Shown in pieces: positions 7,377 through 22,075 of a stretch of DNA of 45,784 nt (position 1 is its first letter; every line of letters starts with the position of its first letter). Source of the DNA: a virus; the IMG/VR virus record IMGVR_UViG_3300028920_000110, positions 1 to 45,784 of that record, one strand, 5' to 3'. The notes below the pieces were generated by a model, which saw only the letters and a program-made list of their open reading frames with translations, was not told the DNA's origin and searched no databases. A program made the position numbers and the translations under genes.

Positions 7377-7562
7377 CTAATCCAGATCGGCAAGGTCATC
7401 ATCTTGGAAAACCTCTTCAAAGTATTCTGGATCAAGCCCATACCCAAGATCATTAAGGCTGTTGTAACAATCGAGACAGACTGTCACGTTCCTGCCAGCA
7501 ACAAACGTCCGGCACTCGCAGTCTCCCTCGGGAATATCTCTACCGCAATTTGTGCACAACAT
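7377..7562 (-). CDS. Small zinc-ribbon protein, 61 aa
   Basis: Starts MLCTNCGRDIPEGDCECR at 7562, six bases after a GGAGG. Cysteine pairs CTNC, CEC and CLDC make a compact zinc-binding fold, with an acidic C-terminal tail (FEEVFQDDDLADLD). It may bind nucleic acid or a host protein. It is one of several small zinc-ribbon genes in the window. The first codons overlap the end of a tiny membrane-protein frame at 7540-7668. Confidence 0.65.
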   Translation of the reverse strand: MLCTNCGRDIPEGDCECRTFVAGRNVTVCLDCYNSLNDLGYGLDPEYFEEVFQDDDLADLD

Positions 7563-7668
7563 ACCAGACCTCCAATAAAATAGCGAACACAAGAATAACA
7601 GGGACAAGTACCATTGACGCAAACACACACGCTATCAAGAACCCACCGATCAAGTTAATTAAGTTCAC
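7540..7668 (-). CDS. Tiny membrane protein, 42 aa, GTG start
   Basis: A frame of 42 codons fills the otherwise empty gap between 7655 and 7562. It begins at a GTG at 7668 and is almost wholly hydrophobic over about 26 residues (FLIACVFASMVLVPVILVFA), ending in a short basic tail with a TAG at 7540. It overlaps the 3' end of the upstream gene by 14 bases and the zinc-ribbon gene by 23 bases in another frame, as neighbours here commonly do. The Shine-Dalgarno (AAGGA, 12 bases upstream) is weak, so the start and even the gene are uncertain. It would be a one-pass membrane peptide of unknown role. Confidence 0.42.
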   Translation of the reverse strand: MNLINLIGGFLIACVFASMVLVPVILVFAILLEVWYVVHKLR

Positions 7669-7957
7669 TGTTCTGTCCCATCCTTACTGCCGCATTGACC
7701 GCAGCGTGTAGGCTTGTTGGCGGGACACCCCGCACCATCAAGGCCATACACATAACCATGAACATACCCTTAACAACCTTACTGTTCTTTTCCTCTGAAA
7801 AAATTTCCCCTTGCATCACCCCGTGTGTCGGATCAAGATTGCTAGGCAACAGAAGATTCACTACACCGCTGATAGTGTTGCGGTCTTCATCATCAAGTTC
7901 ATTAATCATTGAATAAATTTTATCTGCAACAACTTTCATGGTAGTACCTTGTTCCAT
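7655..7957 (-). CDS. Hypothetical protein, 100 aa
   Basis: Starts at the ATG at 7957 with a GGAGGAG directly upstream; a second ATG at 7939 forms an ATGA overlap with the previous stop and is an alternative. It is a helical protein with a hydrophobic Met-rich segment (VKGMFMVMCMALMVRG) that could be a buried core or a weak membrane segment. No family recognised. It follows the amidoligase/amidotransferase cluster in the same operon. Confidence 0.62.
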   Translation of the reverse strand: MEQGTTMKVVADKIYSMINELDDEDRNTISGVVNLLLPSNLDPTHGVMQGEIFSEEKNSKVVKGMFMVMCMALMVRGVPPTSLHAAVNAAVRMGQNSELN

Positions 7958-8994
7958 TTCTCCTCCTCGATATAAAGATTGCACACTTTCTGAGCCTTTT
8001 CATATGGCATAGCCATATCAAAGCTATACCCTGTCCAATGTACTCCTTCCTTTGTAATTTCCGGAAGCATCTTAGCATTCTTCCACACCCAACGGAGAAA
8101 CTGATCTATTTCTTCAACACCAACATCGTCTCCAAGTTTATCATAATCTTTGAACAGATTTTTATACATTGGTGCTCGTTGGGTTTGCTGAAGATACTCT
8201 CTACGAATACCATCAAGTCTTTTCTCAGCATTAAACATCAGTGGAACCACATAATCATCTGTAGCATCTTTCGCCCTCTTTAATTCAGTAAGAATTTCAA
8301 CGAGCCTGTCATCCTTAAACATATAAGGTTGAAAGTGATCTGCATACATTATCTTTCCAACAAATTCAATATCATATCTATCTACAAGTTCAAGATAGTT
8401 TGCGAATGCTCTGAATTTTGTGCCGTACAATCCATCTTGAATGACTTGATTTTCACCATTGCTAAAGGGATCAGCTATTAAATAAATAGCGGCATTGCTA
8501 TACCTTTTCGCAATGCCTTCATCAATAAGGCGCGTCATCTTTTTAGCAGCAGAGGCAATCCACTCAGCCGCATCATTAGAGATAATAAGCGGCCCATAAT
8601 CGCTTGAACTTTCCTTTTTTATTCTTTCAATTAAGGCATCGTCAACCTTAGTATACAAAGCAGACCCACAATACGGACAAGTTAAAGGAATATCTTCAGA
8701 ACAAGCATATGTGTCAACAGCAACTAACGTCCCGCAACAATGGGTAAACCTAGCGTAATGTCCGTTTATGTATTCAGACCCCGCACACTTTATCCTCTCC
8801 GTAACTGTTGCGTGTGGCAACAAATCATATAGCGTCAAGCCTTCAGATCCAATGATGCTCACGTTCATATGTCTAGAATGCCTACCAACATTTATATCAA
8901 TATGTTGGCGAGTAATAACAACTTCATTGTTATCATTGAAGATAACAGAATGTTTTACACTTGTTTCATCATCGTAAAATAGAACCTCATACAT
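7936..8994 (-). CDS. Unknown zinc-ribbon protein of the amidoligase cluster, 352 aa
   Basis: I do not recognise the family. The start at 8994 (MYEVLFYDDE) has a GGAGG nine bases upstream and overlaps the amidotransferase stop by eight bases. The N-terminal half looks beta-rich and contains a zinc-binding region HCCGTLVAVDTYACS followed about ten residues later by CPYCGS (about residues 85-112). The C-terminal 230 residues are mostly helical and charged (for example EILTELKRAKDATDD), with no obvious catalytic triad. Its coupling to the amidotransferase and amidoligase genes suggests it acts with them, for example as a substrate adaptor, but this is inference from position. The local codon use is AT-rich like the two genes upstream, so the three probably travelled together. 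Confidence 0.68.
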   Translation of the reverse strand: MYEVLFYDDETSVKHSVIFNDNNEVVITRQHIDINVGRHSRHMNVSIIGSEGLTLYDLLPHATVTERIKCAGSEYINGHYARFTHCCGTLVAVDTYACSEDIPLTCPYCGSALYTKVDDALIERIKKESSSDYGPLIISNDAAEWIASAAKKMTRLIDEGIAKRYSNAAIYLIADPFSNGENQVIQDGLYGTKFRAFANYLELVDRYDIEFVGKIMYADHFQPYMFKDDRLVEILTELKRAKDATDDYVVPLMFNAEKRLDGIRREYLQQTQRAPMYKNLFKDYDKLGDDVGVEEIDQFLRWVWKNAKMLPEITKEGVHWTGYSFDMAMPYEKAQKVCNLYIEEEKWNKVLP

Positions 8995-9889
8995 TATATT
9001 CATCCTCCTTTTCTTTAGATGCTGGCGTAGTAAATGGGCGAGGATAGACGCCTGTTATATCATTACAAGATGGACACCTTGGAATAAGAACGTTGTTGTC
9101 ATCAATGTCAACTTCTTCTACCTTCTCGATGTTGAACTCACTCATACAGTGATAACAGTACCATACATCGGAGCCCAAAACATATGACGCCTTAGAATAT
9201 TCCTCATCATACAACCACCATTCAAGGTCAATCAAATCATTTAAATCATAAATGTCTCCGTAAATATTTTCGAATGTTACCTCTTTATAATCGCTGTCAT
9301 GTGTGTCATCACCGTCGAGGCATTCCCATGAATTGTTCTTATAATTTCTTTGATAGAGTGTATGGTTTAGATTACTATACCAACACCCACCACTCCAGAA
9401 ACCATCCTCCTCCCTAACAATATCAATGACTCCATCTTTATTGATGAAAGCAATCTTTGAACCTATTCCACAAAAATCTTCAAGCATAATTCTAATACCA
9501 CTATTTCTAATAAAATTCTTTGGTATCTGTCTAAGAATTTTATTGTTGAACTCTACAGTATCAGACTTTTTTGCAGAACCAAATTGATGAAAGACTCCAT
9601 TGTGTGCGAAGGCTAAAGACTTTTCATGTACCCAAAATGGGTGACAGTTTTCTTTGTTCACCGCTCCGTGAGTTGCAATCCTAAAATGTAGGATTGCTGG
9701 AATATTTGTCCAGTCTTTTGAACTCCAAAAAGTTTTGAAATCCTTGAGTTGCATAAAGCCCTTCTTGATATGCACCTTCCCACCCTCGGCCCATGCAATC
9801 CCTGCCCCATCATCATTTAATTTCCAACAGGATTCAATCTCATAATCTGGAATGCTTGCGCCTTTAGGCTTAGCAATAATTACACACAT
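8987..9889 (-). CDS. Class-II glutamine amidotransferase with C-terminal zinc ribbon
   Basis: An N-terminal-nucleophile glutaminase of the GATase-II type, which hydrolyses glutamine and passes ammonia to a partner enzyme. It starts MCVIIAKPKG, so Cys2 becomes the N-terminal nucleophile after methionine removal. Further family marks are HFRIATHG (68-75), ENCHPF (80-85) and AFAHNGVF (93-100), where N97 and G98 form the oxyanion hole. Beyond about residue 200 it is acidic and ends in a zinc ribbon (C245-x2-C248, C272-x2-C275), an uncommon addition. It lies 15 bases downstream of the amidoligase gene. The amide chemistry of the two enzymes matches, so they probably form one pathway. The acceptor substrate is unknown. 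Confidence 0.85.
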   Translation of the reverse strand: MCVIIAKPKGASIPDYEIESCWKLNDDGAGIAWAEGGKVHIKKGFMQLKDFKTFWSSKDWTNIPAILHFRIATHGAVNKENCHPFWVHEKSLAFAHNGVFHQFGSAKKSDTVEFNNKILRQIPKNFIRNSGIRIMLEDFCGIGSKIAFINKDGVIDIVREEDGFWSGGCWYSNLNHTLYQRNYKNNSWECLDGDDTHDSDYKEVTFENIYGDIYDLNDLIDLEWWLYDEEYSKASYVLGSDVWYCYHCMSEFNIEKVEEVDIDDNNVLIPRCPSCNDITGVYPRPFTTPASKEKEDEYNV

Positions 9890-9904
9890 ATATTTTCCTC
9901 CTTA

Positions 9905-11137
9905 TTACGCAGAGAGTGTAAGATAATCAGCAAAGTTAGGGTATGTGTTCGAGTTGTCAATGACAAAATCTTCAAGGTCGCTCACTTTAAGATGGTCAAT
10001 GTCTTTGTTTTTGGTCATCTCGATAAGAGCATGGAGAAATTCGATGTTCCTCAAGATTGTTTTCTTCTCAAGTGTACCTCTGAAAATTCTGCACTCAACT
10101 GTCGCGTGGTTCTGAAAATTCAGGGCTTTATATCTGTTTTGATTCATGCCACGTCCCGAGCACCACCGAGCTAGCGCCGCCTTTTCATTATCAGAAAGAT
10201 CAATACTAGCCCACTCTTGTAGTCTTTCCCCCTCTCTGTTAGCTATAGACTTAATAAACTCTTTGTTTTCAAAAATAAATTTGCTGAATTTGTAAAGATG
10301 TGTTCTTGTAATGAATGAACTCCGTCCTACATGAATGTGCATACCACAATCATTCGAAGTATAGCTTTTAGCGCCAATCTTTGACAGCTCCCTAAAAACA
10401 TCTAGCCTTTTATCGTTTTCTTTTATGCTGTCCAGAGTGAACGGATGAGACGCAATCTCAAATCCTTGTCCCGCAATAGAACCATCTTCCATAAGATAGT
10501 AGAATTCATCCTCATTATAATCATTCACAATATCAACAAAACAAGACAAAGACCTCCCGGAATAATCCGTGTTTACCTCTATCTCAATACCGAATGTTGG
10601 TACTCCCTTTCCGGGTTCTCCCATTATTTCTCCGTGTGTTCTACACGTTCTCAATTGCATCTTTTCTTTCTTACCCAAAAAGACTCTGAAACTAGGTTTA
10701 AAATCCCAAGAGTTTAACCCACTTAGATGATTCTCATGGTAGCAATCACTACAATATGGGCCATATCCAGATTCTTCGTAATAGTAACCATCCTCATTTC
10801 TGTATACTTCACAACAATCACTACAAGTATAAAATCCTTCATAAAAGCACGATTCACAGTACCACTCATGCGTACAATAATCTGAAAAAAGGTATGCATG
10901 ATCTTGTAGAATCAAATCGCGACAGGTCTCACAAGTACAATATACATCTTCATAACATGAATTGCAGATAATTTCATTGTGGTTAAGTGAATAATAATCA
11001 TCATCAAAAATACCATAACCACATTCATTACAATTTCCAACGTAATCGTCAGCACAGTCTGGACACAATCCGTTCTCATCAATTTCTGATTCATCAATAG
11101 TCCAGCAGGTACCACAGTGATTACATTCTGAACTCAT
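9905..11137 (-). CDS. Amidoligase (GCS/COOH-NH2 ligase superfamily) with LIM-like zinc domain
   Basis: A 410-residue ATP-dependent amide-bond-forming enzyme. The C-terminal domain (about 178-375) carries the amidoligase signature: FGIEIEV (182-188), EDGSI (217-221) with FEIASHP (226-232), CGMHIHVGR (264-272), NRYKALNF (334-341) and VECRIFRGT (348-355). The acidic and histidine residues of these motifs bind metal and ATP in the glutamine-synthetase/gamma-glutamyl-cysteine-ligase fold. The N-terminal 140 residues contain about two dozen cysteines as repeated CxxC knuckles, like a chain of LIM or treble-clef zinc fingers, which may select a protein or nucleic-acid target. The start at 11137 has an AAGGAG Shine-Dalgarno. 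The gene heads a three-gene cluster with a GATase-II and a zinc-ribbon protein. The enzyme class is secure; the product is not known. Confidence 0.87.
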   Translation of the reverse strand: MSSECNHCGTCWTIDESEIDENGLCPDCADDYVGNCNECGYGIFDDDYYSLNHNEIICNSCYEDVYCTCETCRDLILQDHAYLFSDYCTHEWYCESCFYEGFYTCSDCCEVYRNEDGYYYEESGYGPYCSDCYHENHLSGLNSWDFKPSFRVFLGKKEKMQLRTCRTHGEIMGEPGKGVPTFGIEIEVNTDYSGRSLSCFVDIVNDYNEDEFYYLMEDGSIAGQGFEIASHPFTLDSIKENDKRLDVFRELSKIGAKSYTSNDCGMHIHVGRSSFITRTHLYKFSKFIFENKEFIKSIANREGERLQEWASIDLSDNEKAALARWCSGRGMNQNRYKALNFQNHATVECRIFRGTLEKKTILRNIEFLHALIEMTKNKDIDHLKVSDLEDFVIDNSNTYPNFADYLTLSA

Positions 11138-12375: not shown

Positions 12376-12504
12376 CGTGGGCTCCTTTCTACGGGGTTCC
12401 TCCCGCTTGTCACCCCTGTATAATGCACTACCCATGCCAACATTGTTGAGACTGGGGAATCTTTTTTGTAAGTCATTGAAAACAAAGAAGAAGAATTTTC
12501 TTGG

Positions 12505-12510
12505 TATAAT
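12505..12510 (+). promoter_or_regulatory. Possible extended -10 element facing right
   Basis: TATAAT preceded by TTGG, that is TGG-TATAAT, on the plus strand. No convincing -35 lies upstream. It faces the leftward extended -10 at 12724 across about 200 gene-free bases, so any transcript would be antisense to the leader of the leftward unit. Chance occurrence in an AT-rich region is possible. Confidence 0.25.
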
Positions 12511-12530
12511 TGAAGCATAACTTAATATAG

Positions 12531-12802
12531 TCAGATATTACATTGATTCTAGTCATATCTCGCCTAACTCCATCTAGGTTTACAAATAATGTTCCGCTGT
12601 ACGTCATCGCTTTATTGGGAATCCCTGCTGTTATGCTTGTAACTCCTGTGTCCCCAACGAGTTCCTTTTACGTTAGTCAGATATTACATAAATGACGTTG
12701 TGCGCCGCATATTGAGACTGGACATTATACCATGTTATATCTGACTTGGCATGAATCTTGTTGAGACCGGTCTCATCAAATATCATTCCATGTTATATCT
12801 GA
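12531..12802. repeat. Four 13-base iterons, two in each orientation
   Basis: TCAGATATTACAT occurs at 12531-12543 and 12677-12689 on the plus strand. The near-identical TCAGATATAACAT occurs on the minus strand at 12732-12744 and 12790-12802; these two copies share a 16-base identity (CCATGTTATATCTGAC as read on plus) and lie 58 bases apart. One copy touches an extended -10 element. The arrangement suits a DNA-binding protein of the phage: a repressor, a replication initiator or integrase arm sites. Confidence 0.72.
12724..12732 (-). promoter_or_regulatory. Candidate extended -10 promoter for the leftward unit
   Basis: On the minus strand the sequence reads TGG-TATAAT, a perfect extended -10 element (TGnTATAAT). 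No good -35 is present, as is usual for extended -10 promoters. The iteron at 12732-12744 abuts it on the upstream side, so a protein bound there would overlap positions about -15 to -28. Transcription would start near 12717 and reach the first gene after roughly 340 bases of leader. The assignment is by sequence only. Confidence 0.42.
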
Positions 12803-12838
12803 CAACATTCGCGTAGTGCATAGGTGTTATCATGCCAT

Positions 12839-12852
12839 TGTCAGATCTGACA
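12839..12852. promoter_or_regulatory. Perfect 14-base palindrome, operator-like
   Basis: TGTCAGATCTGACA is its own reverse complement. It contains the TCAGAT core of the neighbouring iterons on both arms, so it looks like a head-to-head pair of iteron half-sites and would suit a dimeric regulator. Confidence 0.55.
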
Positions 12853-12863
12853 TATGGTGCGCA

Positions 12864-12936
12864 GGGGATAATGGGAATCATTATCAATTGATCTATTAAA
12901 GTCTTAGTAGGTGGGGGATGATGTTGGGAATCATTA
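12864..12936. repeat. Imperfect direct repeat around GGGAATCATTA
   Basis: GGGAATCATTA occurs at 12873-12883 and 12926-12936. Each copy is preceded by a G-rich GGGGATAATG or GGGGATGATG element, so the repeat unit is about 20-24 bases with small differences. It belongs to the same gene-free control region; its role is unknown. Confidence 0.45.
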
Positions 12937-12941
12937 CTGAT

Positions 12942-12986
12942 ATGGTGCTACACTTGTAGTATGCATGGTGCTACACTTGTAGTATG
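12942..12986 (+). repeat. Tandem perfect 22-base repeat with internal dyad
   Basis: Two identical 22-base copies (12942-12963 and 12965-12986) are separated by a single C. Each contains the dyad CTACA-CT-TGTAG. A repeated dyad at 23-base spacing (about two helical turns) would place two bound dimers on the same DNA face, so this looks like a pair of operators. Confidence 0.7.
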
Positions 12987-13045
12987 TGGGGAAACGAGAA
13001 CAATAATTATTACTATTAAGGTTTAGGGGGACCTAATCTAAATAA

Positions 13046-13163
13046 GAATGAATTCCTACTTAGGAATGAATTCCGAATAGGAATAATTCCTGCCATGCCG
13101 TGCAACGAAATGGCTATTGGCAACTGTTATCATTAGCGTTATCAGCCACTTAGGAATGGTTCC
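13046..13163. promoter_or_regulatory. Cluster of four GGAAT/ATTCC dyads
   Basis: GAATGAATTCC (13046-13056), GGAATGAATTCC (13063-13074), GGAATAATTCC (13080-13090) and GGAATGGTTCC (13153-13163) are short dyads. Two of them share the preceding ACTTA context. The first three are spaced about 17 bases apart. This spacing and symmetry are typical of operator clusters, although the bound protein is not identifiable. Confidence 0.5.
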
Positions 13164-13191
13164 TGTATCCTGCCTTGGTGCTAATGATAAC
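13126..13191. repeat. 12-base inverted repeat flanking an operator-like dyad
   Basis: GTTATCATTAGC at 13126-13137 and its exact complement GCTAATGATAAC at 13180-13191 flank 42 bases that contain the GGAATGGTTCC dyad. The nested symmetry could form a cruciform or bind a regulator; an origin element is also possible. Confidence 0.5.
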
Positions 13192-13222
13192 TATTACTCC
13201 TTCTGTGCCTGTAATATTCTTC

Positions 13223-13395
13223 CCCCCGTATCCACCCACCGAAGTTTTGTCGCTTACGATAAACCCCCTCACGTATCCCCACAGTAAAAACACCCCAATA
13301 TCCTATCCTCACAATACCTCTAAAACCCCACAGAATGCTTTCTAATCAATTTTAACCCCCTCACAGGTACTTGACCCCTCGTAGACTTCTAGAAC
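13223..13395. other. C-rich, G-poor gene-free stretch
   Basis: The plus strand here is rich in C runs and poor in G. AACCCCCTCAC occurs twice (13262-13272 and 13354-13364), and CCCCACAG also occurs twice. No gene frame with a start signal is present. Such strand asymmetry in a control region is compatible with an origin, a primer-RNA template or a single-strand-binding site. Confidence 0.4.
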
Positions 13396-13447
13396 GCCGC
13401 ACAGAACGATCTGAGAGGTTTTAGTAAATTATCCCTTTTAACGATGG

Positions 13448-13467
13448 ATCCTCCACTGAAGGAGGAT
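13448..13467. terminator. Perfect hairpin, possible terminator or boundary
   Basis: ATCCTCC-ACTGAA-GGAGGAT forms a 7-base-pair stem with a 6-base loop. No T run follows on either strand, so intrinsic termination would be weak. It separates the C-rich part from the AT-rich promoter repeats. Confidence 0.35.
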
Positions 13468-13630
13468 GCTTGAAGGTTCCTACTGAAAGCCTACGCGCGT
13501 ATAGAACTAGTATAGTTATACATGATATACATTATGTACGTATTACGTACGTTATGTACATATATGGCTATAGATGTACATATTACGTACATGATGTATA
13601 ACTGGTATAAATAAATATAATATGTTCTTC

Positions 13631-13659
13631 TTGTTAGTATTACGTACATGATGTATAAC
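13631..13659 (+). promoter_or_regulatory. Tandem promoter copy 1
   Basis: TTGTTA (13631-13636), 17 bases, TATAAC (13654-13659): close to the sigma70 consensus with ideal spacing. It spans the junction of repeat units 1 and 2 and points at the rightward unit. Confidence 0.5.
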
Positions 13660-13687
13660 TGGTATAAATAAATATAATATGTTCTTC

Positions 13688-13716
13688 TTGTTAGTATTAC
13701 GTACATGATGTATAAC
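13688..13716 (+). promoter_or_regulatory. Tandem promoter copy 2
   Basis: Identical TTGTTA-N17-TATAAC 57 bases downstream of copy 1, at the junction of repeat units 2 and 3. Confidence 0.5.
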
Positions 13717-13744
13717 TGGTATAAATAAATATAATATGTTCTTC

Positions 13745-13773
13745 TTGTTAGTATTACGTACATGATGTATAAC
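13745..13773 (+). promoter_or_regulatory. Tandem promoter copy 3
   Basis: Third identical TTGTTA-N17-TATAAC. A start near 13780 would give a leader of about 150 bases before the first gene of the rightward unit. Confidence 0.5.
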
Positions 13774-13882
13774 TAATATATCCTATACTAACTATACTAA
13801 TTATACGTATAACTAGTATTACTAATATAGATAGGGTAGCACAAGGATCAGTTTTGCGCAAGGGTATATGAAAGAGGTGGTG

Positions 13883-13911
13883 TTGCGTGGTAGAAAGTCA
13901 ACTGCTACAAT
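13883..13911 (+). promoter_or_regulatory. Promoter immediately upstream of the rightward unit
   Basis: TTGCGT (13883-13888), 17 bases, TACAAT (13906-13911). The 12 bases GTGGTGTTGCGT (13877-13888) recur exactly at 16598-16609 in front of the terminase genes, where another TATAAT follows. A TTTTGCGCAAGG element with the palindromic core TTGCGCAA lies just upstream (13852-13863) and again inside the first gene (14019-14030), and could be an operator. Confidence 0.5.
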
Positions 13912-13930
13912 GGTTGCGAAGGAGTAGGAA

Positions 13931-19758: not shown

Positions 19759-20022
19759 ATGAAGACTCTACAGGATGTAAAAGAATTGCTGCATGAATGG
19801 GGAACTTCAAACAAGGTGGGTTCGCTGCTGTTGTTTAAGTACCCAGGCACGAAGGAGATCAACGTGCTCGAAGAGCGAGTTGTTAAGCTTCGTGAAATGG
19901 ATGAGGAGACGGCAAACGCCTTTGTTATTCTCATGGACAACCTTGGTATTGAGCGCGGAGAGGTTGTCAGAAACAAAGAGGGCTTGCCTGATCGAGTCAA
20001 ACTAACTCGCAGGATTGGATAA
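19759..20022 (+). CDS. Hypothetical protein, 87 aa
   Basis: Starts MKTLQDVKELLHEWG nine bases after a perfect AAGGAGG. Predominantly helical, with a charged surface. Ends one base before the portal start. Function unknown. Confidence 0.6.
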   Translation: MKTLQDVKELLHEWGTSNKVGSLLLFKYPGTKEINVLEERVVKLREMDEETANAFVILMDNLGIERGEVVRNKEGLPDRVKLTRRIG

Positions 20023-20023
20023 C

Positions 20024-22075
20024 ATGCTACAGATTGATGGTCCTTCGGACTATAGAAAAAGGGTTAAGTTCAAGGATGGTAAGCGAGAAGAGCTTATTAA
20101 ATACCTTGACGAGCAATACACCAAGTGCATTGCTGATAGACGGCCCCTGATTGAAAAGTGTAAGGCATGGAGCGAACAGGCTAACTCTAGGCGTAAGCGC
20201 CCGGATGCTAGTCCAGATTCCTCCGATGTCGATATGCCGCTTACCAGGAAGCGTATGACGCAAAACTCCGCTCGACTTAAGAACCCGCTGTTACAGCAGG
20301 AAACCTTCTTTGCCACCAGGCCGAGGAACGCCAAGGAAGAGGCCGCTAAGCTTGCGAAGTCTGTTGAGAAGGCTCTCGACTACATGGTTGACCGCATCGA
20401 CGTTCGCGCACTACTTGACGAGTGGATTGAGCAATTTCAGGTATTTCCATTTGGTGTTATTAAAACTCCATTTGTTTACGTCCGCGAAAAAGTAAATAGG
20501 TGGCAGGAGATTGACGCCGCATCGCACGAACAGATTATGTCAGACAAGCTTAATGAAGTTCCTGAAGCTAAAAAGCTACTCACCATGGAGCGCGATCTCG
20601 GCAATGGCGAAATAAAATACTATGTAGAGATTGATGCTTGGCTTGATACCAAGGTTGGGTGTTTCCCTGAAGTTGTGCCATTCGAAGATTTCATTGTTCC
20701 GATGGGGACCAAGGACATTGAATCGGCAGATATTATTTTTCACAGGATTCATCTCAGCAAACAGGCTGTTAAAGACAGGGTGAGAGAAGGAATCTACGAC
20801 AAAGAGTATGATGGCGAAAAGGTCATTGAAAGAATTGGCAAGCCATCTGAAGAGCCGGAACGACTCATGCTTCCCATCAACGCGCCGCATGATAGCGGAG
20901 AAATGCAGGAAAGCAATAAGTTTTATTACGGCATTCTTGAGACTTACGTAAGATTTGATGTTGATGGTGATGATGAAGAGGAAGAGATTCTTGTAACCTA
21001 CGAGCCGAAGAGTAAAACTATTCTTCGTGCTGACTACAACGGCTTCCATTCATATCGCCGCCCGTTTATTGTTCATCAGTATAAAAAGGTTGTTGGCAGC
21101 ATCTTTGGTGATCCGCTAACTTTTATGCTTGAGCCACTCCACGTCGCAAATTCGGCATCAGTTAATCAGCGCCTCGACGCCGCTTCGCTGGCTAACAAGA
21201 TTACGCTGTTTGTCCCCGAAGGATCAAAGATCCAGCGTATTCTTAGCCGAGGGGACATTACCGCTTCGGTTTACGAGATAGACTTTGATCCTAGCGACAT
21301 CTTCCAGTTCGCTATCAAGCCTTCGTTCAATCAGCTTCCTGATCTTGAAATGCGTTTTGAACAATCTGCTGATGAGATTGCGTCTTTGAATCCGTATTCA
21401 TTTGGTCGGGAACAGAGCGAGCGCCCCGTTGCTTCAGGCATGATCACCATTATTGAGGAATCTAAACAGCCTCAATACGATATGCTTGAGTCCTTCCGTG
21501 GCAAGCTTTCGCTCCTTGCCAAGCATATGCTTAGCAGGTATAAGCAGTTCTATCCTGAAGGCTTGGTGTATTACACCTATGGTAATGACGAGGAGGACAA
21601 CGAGCTACTTAAACAAGTTATGCAATGGCCGGATGGCCTAATTGAAAATGACGTAATTATCGAGACCAGAGCATCTAGCTCACAGATGAGCAAGACCATG
21701 CGCAAGCAAGAAGTTGTTGCGCTGATGGACAAGCTTCCCCAGTATCAGAGCACTCTCATGGGCTTGGCACAGGCTGCATCGGATGTTATGAATCCTGCTG
21801 CACCGGTTGCCGGTCAGTTACTTATGTCGTTCTGGGCAGGGCTTGATTATATGCTCAAAGAACTTGAGGTTCCGAATAAGGACGTCATCAATCCAAACTT
21901 GGGAGAGGCACTAGATTATGGTAAGAGAGTTCAGCAAGAGATTATGGGACTTCGTCAAGAGAATATGCAGCTTAAAGGTATTCTCACTAACCTACAGGGT
22001 GGAACTCCCAACGTACCGGCTGGAGTTGGAGGACCAGAACTTCCTGGACAGCCTCAGCAGGCACCAGGCGTATAG
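20024..22075 (+). CDS. Portal protein
   Basis: A 683-residue protein in the portal position. It fits the large podovirus portal type: basic N-terminal region with SRRKRPDASPDSSD, a long wing and stem region with LEPLHVANSASVNQRLD, the FGREQSERPVASGM segment (about 465-480) and a Gln/Pro-rich C-terminus. The portal forms the 12-fold ring at one capsid vertex through which DNA is packaged and ejected. I chose the ATG at 20024 (AGGA nine bases upstream) over the in-frame TTG at 20015. The helical C-terminal barrel region (DYGKRVQQEIMGLRQENMQL, about 620-655) supports the call. Confidence 0.82.
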   Translation: MLQIDGPSDYRKRVKFKDGKREELIKYLDEQYTKCIADRRPLIEKCKAWSEQANSRRKRPDASPDSSDVDMPLTRKRMTQNSARLKNPLLQQETFFATRPRNAKEEAAKLAKSVEKALDYMVDRIDVRALLDEWIEQFQVFPFGVIKTPFVYVREKVNRWQEIDAASHEQIMSDKLNEVPEAKKLLTMERDLGNGEIKYYVEIDAWLDTKVGCFPEVVPFEDFIVPMGTKDIESADIIFHRIHLSKQAVKDRVREGIYDKEYDGEKVIERIGKPSEEPERLMLPINAPHDSGEMQESNKFYYGILETYVRFDVDGDDEEEEILVTYEPKSKTILRADYNGFHSYRRPFIVHQYKKVVGSIFGDPLTFMLEPLHVANSASVNQRLDAASLANKITLFVPEGSKIQRILSRGDITASVYEIDFDPSDIFQFAIKPSFNQLPDLEMRFEQSADEIASLNPYSFGREQSERPVASGMITIIEESKQPQYDMLESFRGKLSLLAKHMLSRYKQFYPEGLVYYTYGNDEEDNELLKQVMQWPDGLIENDVIIETRASSSQMSKTMRKQEVVALMDKLPQYQSTLMGLAQAASDVMNPAAPVAGQLLMSFWAGLDYMLKELEVPNKDVINPNLGEALDYGKRVQQEIMGLRQENMQLKGILTNLQGGTPNVPAGVGGPELPGQPQQAPGV

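Follow-up and report, generated by a model that had tools for sequence, protein, structure and literature searches.

Phage amidoligase and glutamine amidotransferase pairs with a LIM-like zinc array are widespread and also occur on mobile elements of gut bacteria

We analyzed a 45,784-base stretch of viral DNA comprising the entire IMG/VR virus record IMGVR_UViG_3300028920_000110 (the window), focusing on two adjacent genes that encode an amidoligase and a class-II glutamine amidotransferase (GATase). The amidoligase carries an array of LIM-like zinc motifs, and this zinc-array form of the phage amidoligase/GATase pair is a widespread, little noticed variant that is also present on mobile elements of gut bacteria. 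We consider it moderately probable that the two proteins jointly use glutamine to amidate a carboxylate of a macromolecule that is docked by the zinc array. The first-pass annotation of the window, made from the sequence alone, had proposed that the two genes and a third one next to them constitute a new kind of modification system; this is not the case, because the pair is already known from phiEco32, LUZ24-like phages, RIO-1, PSA-HP1, Marvin, and MEP401/402.

The amidoligase scored 38 bits against PF12224, well above the curated cut-off of 22, and its AlphaFold2 model is confident (pLDDT, predicted local distance difference test, 87.6). The best Foldseek matches in PDB were glutamine synthetase, YbdK, Dop, and glutamate-cysteine ligase (GCL), all with a probability of 1.00, and PafA was matched as well; TM-scores were low, about 0.3, as computed over the whole query, zinc region included. 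The modeled fold is that of glutamine synthetase and glutamate-cysteine ligase (GS/GCS), and YbdK is the nearest named ligase family. In an alignment of 65 amidoligases, picked mainly from zinc-array relatives, G183, E185, E187, D218, E227, H267, H269, R301, N340, E348, and R350 are invariant, and all of these except G183 are metal- and ATP-binding residues of the GCS/GS type. The GCS-type assignment made in the first-pass annotation was thus borne out, and the zinc cysteines of the amidoligase proved to be conserved and not misaligned.

The GATase scored 29.7 bits against PF13230 (cut-off, 23). Its Met-Cys start, R70, T73-H74-G75, N97-G98, and D110 are invariant in all the compared phages, and almost all of the 223 GATase homologs begin with Met-Cys or Val-Cys. 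Identification as GlmS or PurF was rejected: the match to the glmS equivalog was confined to the GATase part and reached 42.9 bits against a cut-off of 418, and the synthase domain was not matched. The active sites of both the ligase and the GATase look intact because the family residues and the Met-Cys start are kept and the model is confident. The previously annotated C-terminal zinc ribbon of the GATase (CYHC...CPSC) was confirmed; roughly one in two viral GATases, but no bacterial one, has at least two CxxC motifs beyond residue 170.

Ahead of its catalytic domain, the amidoligase contains nine CxxC motifs. Six CxxC pairs (36/39, 58/61, 69/72, 94/97, 105/108, and 129/132) are at least 90% conserved in the 65-sequence alignment, and a profile of this alignment matched LIM proteins in PDB with E values of 1.9e-5 and 6e-5, as expected from the LIM-like chain perceived in the first-pass annotation; the Foldseek matches of the array to LIM domains were weak. 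We denote the array LIM-like rather than LIM because adjacent modules are separated by seven residues (C61-C69 and C97-C105) instead of the canonical two. The CxxC count per amidoligase is bimodal in viral relatives, peaking at two and at eight or more, whereas most bacterial amidoligases have six. No paper mentioning both 'LIM domain' and 'amidoligase' was found in the literature searched, but the structure library contains one well-matching viral protein annotated as 'LIM domain containing protein', so the feature has already been noticed by annotators.

LIM domains are protein-binding modules, and this property bears on the nature of the target. The earlier suggestion that the zinc domains might select DNA or RNA for modification is compatible with the frequent binding of nucleic acids by zinc ribbons and with the location of the pair among replication genes. 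However, the profile of the array matches LIM domains, and no base-modification genes were recognized among the window genes scanned, so that no support for a nucleic-acid target emerged and we regard this explanation as very improbable.

Searches of viral contigs with the window amidoligase and third protein as single queries gave no matches, whereas alignment-based scans of IMG/VR succeeded. We examined 80 viral loci seeded with the amidoligase and 80 seeded with the GATase, and counted as paired those with a GATase within 150 bases. The amidoligase is followed by the GATase in 76 of the 80 amidoligase-seeded and 77 of the 80 GATase-seeded loci (153/160). Of the unpaired loci, two (L007 and L047) end near the gene, and in another (L158), the amidoligase was detected only below the profile threshold. 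The sequences of the two proteins co-diverge (Mantel r 0.68 for 85 dereplicated pairs; 0 of 2000 permutations), although shared genome history adds to this correlation. Taken together, the viral adjacency and co-divergence rule out chance pairing or an artifact, in agreement with the first-pass reading of the two genes as a unit, given that the same order and the catalytic residues are kept in almost every relative.

In bacteria, the GATase lies beside the amidoligase in 59 of 67 loci. The carriers are mainly Ruminococcus flavefaciens and its kin, with several copies per genome, and most of the contexts are Ruminococcaceae mobile elements; a DUF960 protein precedes the amidoligase in 33 of the 67 loci, and a small serine recombinase follows the pair in 32. 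In a metagenome-assembled genome of Atopobiaceae, a single frame of 681 amino acids (L213:4947-6989) fuses the zinc array, amidoligase, and GATase; the Met-Cys of the GATase is internal (residue 429), so internal initiation is possible. Because of the adjacency in viruses and bacteria, the co-divergence, and this fused frame, the pair is best viewed as one enzyme. Two further arrangements were observed. In R. flavefaciens and relatives (L168-L234), multi-copy chromosomal cassettes consist of DUF960, zinc-array amidoligase, GATase, and small serine recombinase genes, sometimes near a MobA-type relaxase; such a cassette is apparently a mobile element, for which no published description was found. 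In a 166-kb virus (L065:5923-11134), one GATase is flanked by two zinc-array amidoligases, and the genome also encodes a gamma-glutamyl cyclotransferase (GGCT). No PADLOC model matched the three window proteins or the bacterial amidoligase and GATase, and accordingly, a known anti-phage defense system was rejected.

The affinity with YbdK invites a metabolic interpretation, under which the pair would be an auxiliary metabolic gene set producing a gamma-glutamyl or amidated metabolite; indeed, a role in nitrogen metabolism has been proposed for the amidoligase, GATase, glutathione synthase, and cyclotransferase genes of Phage-ZRK32 (PMC10945688). A long conserved LIM-like array is, however, unexpected on a ligase acting on small molecules, the window shows no further metabolic genes next to the pair, and the pair also resides on bacterial mobile elements. 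We therefore consider such a metabolic function quite improbable.

The scheme that we favor for the pair is amidation of a docked macromolecule. The amidoligase and the GATase would act as one two-protein enzyme, in which the N-terminal cysteine of the GATase is predicted to free ammonia from glutamine, whereas the GS/GCS-fold ligase would activate a carboxylate with ATP and couple to it ammonia, or another amine, yielding an amide. The LIM-like array would dock the complex on its target, aided by the GATase zinc ribbon in the clade of the window and perhaps also by the third zinc protein. The docked target is more likely a host protein or a protein-bound substrate than a nucleic acid; a protein partner is favored because the zinc modules are LIM-like, with peptidoglycan precursors remaining a serious rival. 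The phage would make the pair early, during host takeover, and presumably benefit from the modification at that stage.

Several observations weigh against this scheme. The Clostridioides difficile phage AR1086-1 encodes an amidoligase with no GATase found nearby, and conversely, no amidoligase was found near the related GATase encoded on each of two larger virus contigs (L099 and L103). Relatives of the MEP and phiEco32 types have few or no zinc modules, and LIM-like arrays could be structural. GATase-like proteins can be hydrolases rather than ammonia donors, the proposed chemistry is drawn from family relationships, and our literature search found no biochemistry for the zinc-array branch. 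The matches to Dop and PafA suggest yet another division of labor, where the amidoligase would attach a peptide or amino-acid tag, as PafA does with Pup, and the GATase, which has the N-terminal nucleophile hydrolase fold, would remove it. Peptide tagging was reportedly predicted among related ligases by Iyer et al. in 2009. The GATase nevertheless retains the glutamine-site residues of true amidotransferases, and no conserved small tag protein was found beside the pair across lineages, making a writer/eraser arrangement improbable.

The gene downstream of the GATase was originally included in the system, with zinc modules ascribed to all three products. This holds for the amidoligase and the GATase, but the zinc ribbon of the third protein is weaker, comprising one good CxxC motif and neighboring cysteines. 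The third protein matched no family, no homologs were found among phages or in IMG/VR, and a single-sequence fold model was too poor to use (pLDDT 39.5). A degenerate ATP-grasp was rejected, as the RimK-type protein of LUZ24 was not matched, and so was a degenerate amidoligase, given that the amidoligase profile was matched only over a short zinc motif. In the amidoligase tree, the window groups with two viruses, L087 and L156 (support 96/94), and in both, the slot right after the GATase is occupied by a CxxC protein of 366 or 391 amino acids. A CxxC protein of 320-420 amino acids, a class defined after the pattern was seen, fills this slot in 3 of 137 loci, namely the window, L087, and L156, and in none of the other 134. 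Pairwise BLAST and shuffling comparisons of the third gene with these counterparts were unconvincing (global z 2.5, 0.5, and 1.9), and the L087 protein used as a query recovered only itself, so we claim only positional equivalence. The anticipated conservation of the trio was thus supported in position but not in detectable homology; because of the similarly sized CxxC proteins in L087 and L156, the trio is probably real in this small clade, the pair being the working core.

In all three viruses, the third-slot protein is followed by a protein of about 100 amino acids, which in the window is a candidate fourth member of the unit (Table 1); the frame of 118 amino acids in the L156 slot shows no detectable similarity to the window protein. 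Another small Cys-rich, zinc-knuckle-like protein is encoded in the same operon (7377-7628), with a similar-looking one in L087, and about 40 viral loci have a member of a family of small zinc proteins close to the pair.

Table 1. Features of the amidoligase locus; coordinates refer to the window unless another locus is named.
Feature	Coordinates	Strand	Description
Amidoligase (Amidoligase_2, PF12224)	9905..11137	-	410 aa; N-terminal zinc array and predicted GS/GCS-fold ligase domain
LIM-like zinc array	10742..11125	-	Residues 5-132, nine overlapping CxxC motifs
Ligase catalytic domain	9923..10609	-	Residues 177-405
Class-II glutamine amidotransferase (GATase)	8987..9889	-	300 aa
C-terminal zinc ribbon of GATase (CYHC...CPSC)	9059..9163, approximate	-	From sequence
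Third gene	7936..8994	-	352 aa; central CxxC zinc-ribbon-like motif; no family
Small protein after third gene	7655..7984	-	Conserved in L087 (E 8e-10)
Positional counterparts of third gene	L087:4813-5910; L156:7233-8405		Same slot after GATase

The three open reading frames are all present on the minus strand, and the coordinates and descriptions given to them in the first-pass annotation are correct. The genes are adjacent, tightly coupled, and AT-rich, as had been noted: the amidoligase stop and the GATase start are separated by 15 nt, the third-gene start overlaps the GATase stop by 8 nt, and the GC content is 0.38 over 8001-11000 compared to about 0.46 for most of the window. All three genes have good ribosome sites. 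The third gene could be extended to an ATG at 9003, but the start at 8994 is preferred because the Shine-Dalgarno sequence AAGGAGG, which abuts the 9003 ATG and is 9 nt from the 8994 ATG, is better spaced for the latter. The surrounding leftward block encodes DnaB helicase, exonuclease VIII-like and Mgm101-like recombination proteins, and an integrase, whereas the structural genes, including the T7-like terminase and the SU10-like portal, run in the opposite direction. A TTGACA-18-TACAAT sequence lies upstream of the amidoligase (11210-11181), but it is a mere lead because a promoter scan yielded fewer matches than shuffled sequences. Between the leftward and rightward units (12436-13930), a 57-bp unit is tandemly repeated three to four times (13581-13780), and a 15-nt operator-like motif, GTCAGATATTACAT / ATGTTATATCTGAC, recurs at several positions (12528, 12674, 12732, 12790, and 12838); these are possible repressor sites or an origin. 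Judging from the integrase gene (1825-2907) and the SU10-type portal (20015-22075; PF23899, E 6.8e-22), the virus may be a temperate relative of C3-type podoviruses.

Phage amidoligase/GATase pairs are common, and our literature search found no experimental test or demonstration of their target. The zinc-array branch would be a good test case: it comprises two genes only, its active sites look intact, the array is an obvious module for docking, and it is represented in the cultured model phage Marvin of Mycobacterium smegmatis as well as in gut bacteria that have been cultured. Should the target prove to be a protein, this would be a widespread phage-borne protein modification that has gone unrecognized; if it is peptidoglycan, a prediction made in 2009 would finally be tested. 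A bolder proposal, which we put forward tentatively and consider doubtful, is that the zinc-array pair represents a distinct, widely shared protein-modification system of phages with many hosts and of integrative elements of gut Firmicutes, in which the LIM-like array picks a host protein whose carboxylates are amidated or tagged, for takeover or to block defense.

Marvin (gp105/gp106), MEP401, and MEP402 have the same two genes next to each other and in the same order, with homology across the catalytic domains, and a study of OM43 phages reports the pair in MEP401, MEP402, and more than 30 related genomes (PMC10580990). The zinc region of the Marvin amidoligase is shorter than that of the window, and those of MEP401 and MEP402 have a long, different N-terminus with few CxxC motifs. 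The Ruminococcaceae mobile elements share with the window the zinc-array amidoligase followed by a class-II GATase, but these cassettes are chromosomal and multi-copy, are accompanied by a recombinase and sometimes a relaxase, and their GATases lack the C-terminal zinc ribbon.

Like the window, phiEco32, LUZ24, and RIO-1 encode an Amidoligase_2 and a class-II GATase, which in these phages lie among the early replication genes. For RIO-1, phiEco32, LUZ24, PaP3, tf, and others, the homologous genes have been termed a cassette for peptidoglycan modification, with reference to Hardies 2013 (PMC5498523), and peptidoglycan change or superinfection exclusion has been predicted for phiEco32, LUZ24, RIO-1, and PSA-HP1 (PMC5498523, PMC10580990, PMC11318856), following Iyer et al. 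2009 on phiEco32 cell-wall modification against superinfection (cited in PMC10580990). The window pair could accordingly be a trimmed version of this podoviral cassette that amidates or re-links precursor stem peptides, shutting out competing phages; the phages with the pair infect very different hosts, all of which possess peptidoglycan. The cassette, however, additionally includes an ATP-grasp, a COOH-NH2 ligase (PF14395, matched in phiEco32 and LUZ24 and annotated in RIO-1), and GGCT (PF06094, found in all three phages). Neither the second ligase nor GGCT was found in the window or the other zinc-array viruses checked, except for GGCT in the 166-kb virus; a RimK ATP-grasp model did not match the window either, although this model is weak on positive controls too and misses LUZ24. 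A RimK-type ATP-grasp accompanies 34 amidoligases with few CxxC motifs, compared to 1 of the 89 with five or more. In a clustering of neighboring genes, 35 loci had a RimK-like ATP-grasp gene immediately following the GATase (cluster 14; e.g., L159:6960-7709), almost all of them with few-CxxC amidoligases. Because these companions are almost never found with it, the zinc-array form appears to act as a two-gene unit. Furthermore, the amidoligases of phiEco32, LUZ24, and RIO-1 lack CxxC motifs and form a separate long-branched clade (support 100/94), whereas the zinc-array form is not one clade, few-CxxC forms being nested among zinc-array forms, with weakly supported deep branches. We deem a peptidoglycan-modifying role unlikely, albeit deserving serious attention.

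Such chemistry on lipid II does exist: in MurT-GatD, a glutaminase and an ATP-dependent ligase jointly amidate this precursor, and the ligase, MurT, has a Cys4 zinc ribbon belonging to a class that is known to mediate protein contacts (PMC5871853, PMC6113224). The folds of MurT, which is a Mur ligase, and of GatD, which is a class-I GATase, are unrelated to those of the GS/GCS amidoligase and the class-II GATase. Nevertheless, both systems consist of two proteins, a glutaminase and a zinc-bearing, ATP-dependent amide ligase, and by analogy, MurT-GatD would provide a working precedent for the amidation proposed here.

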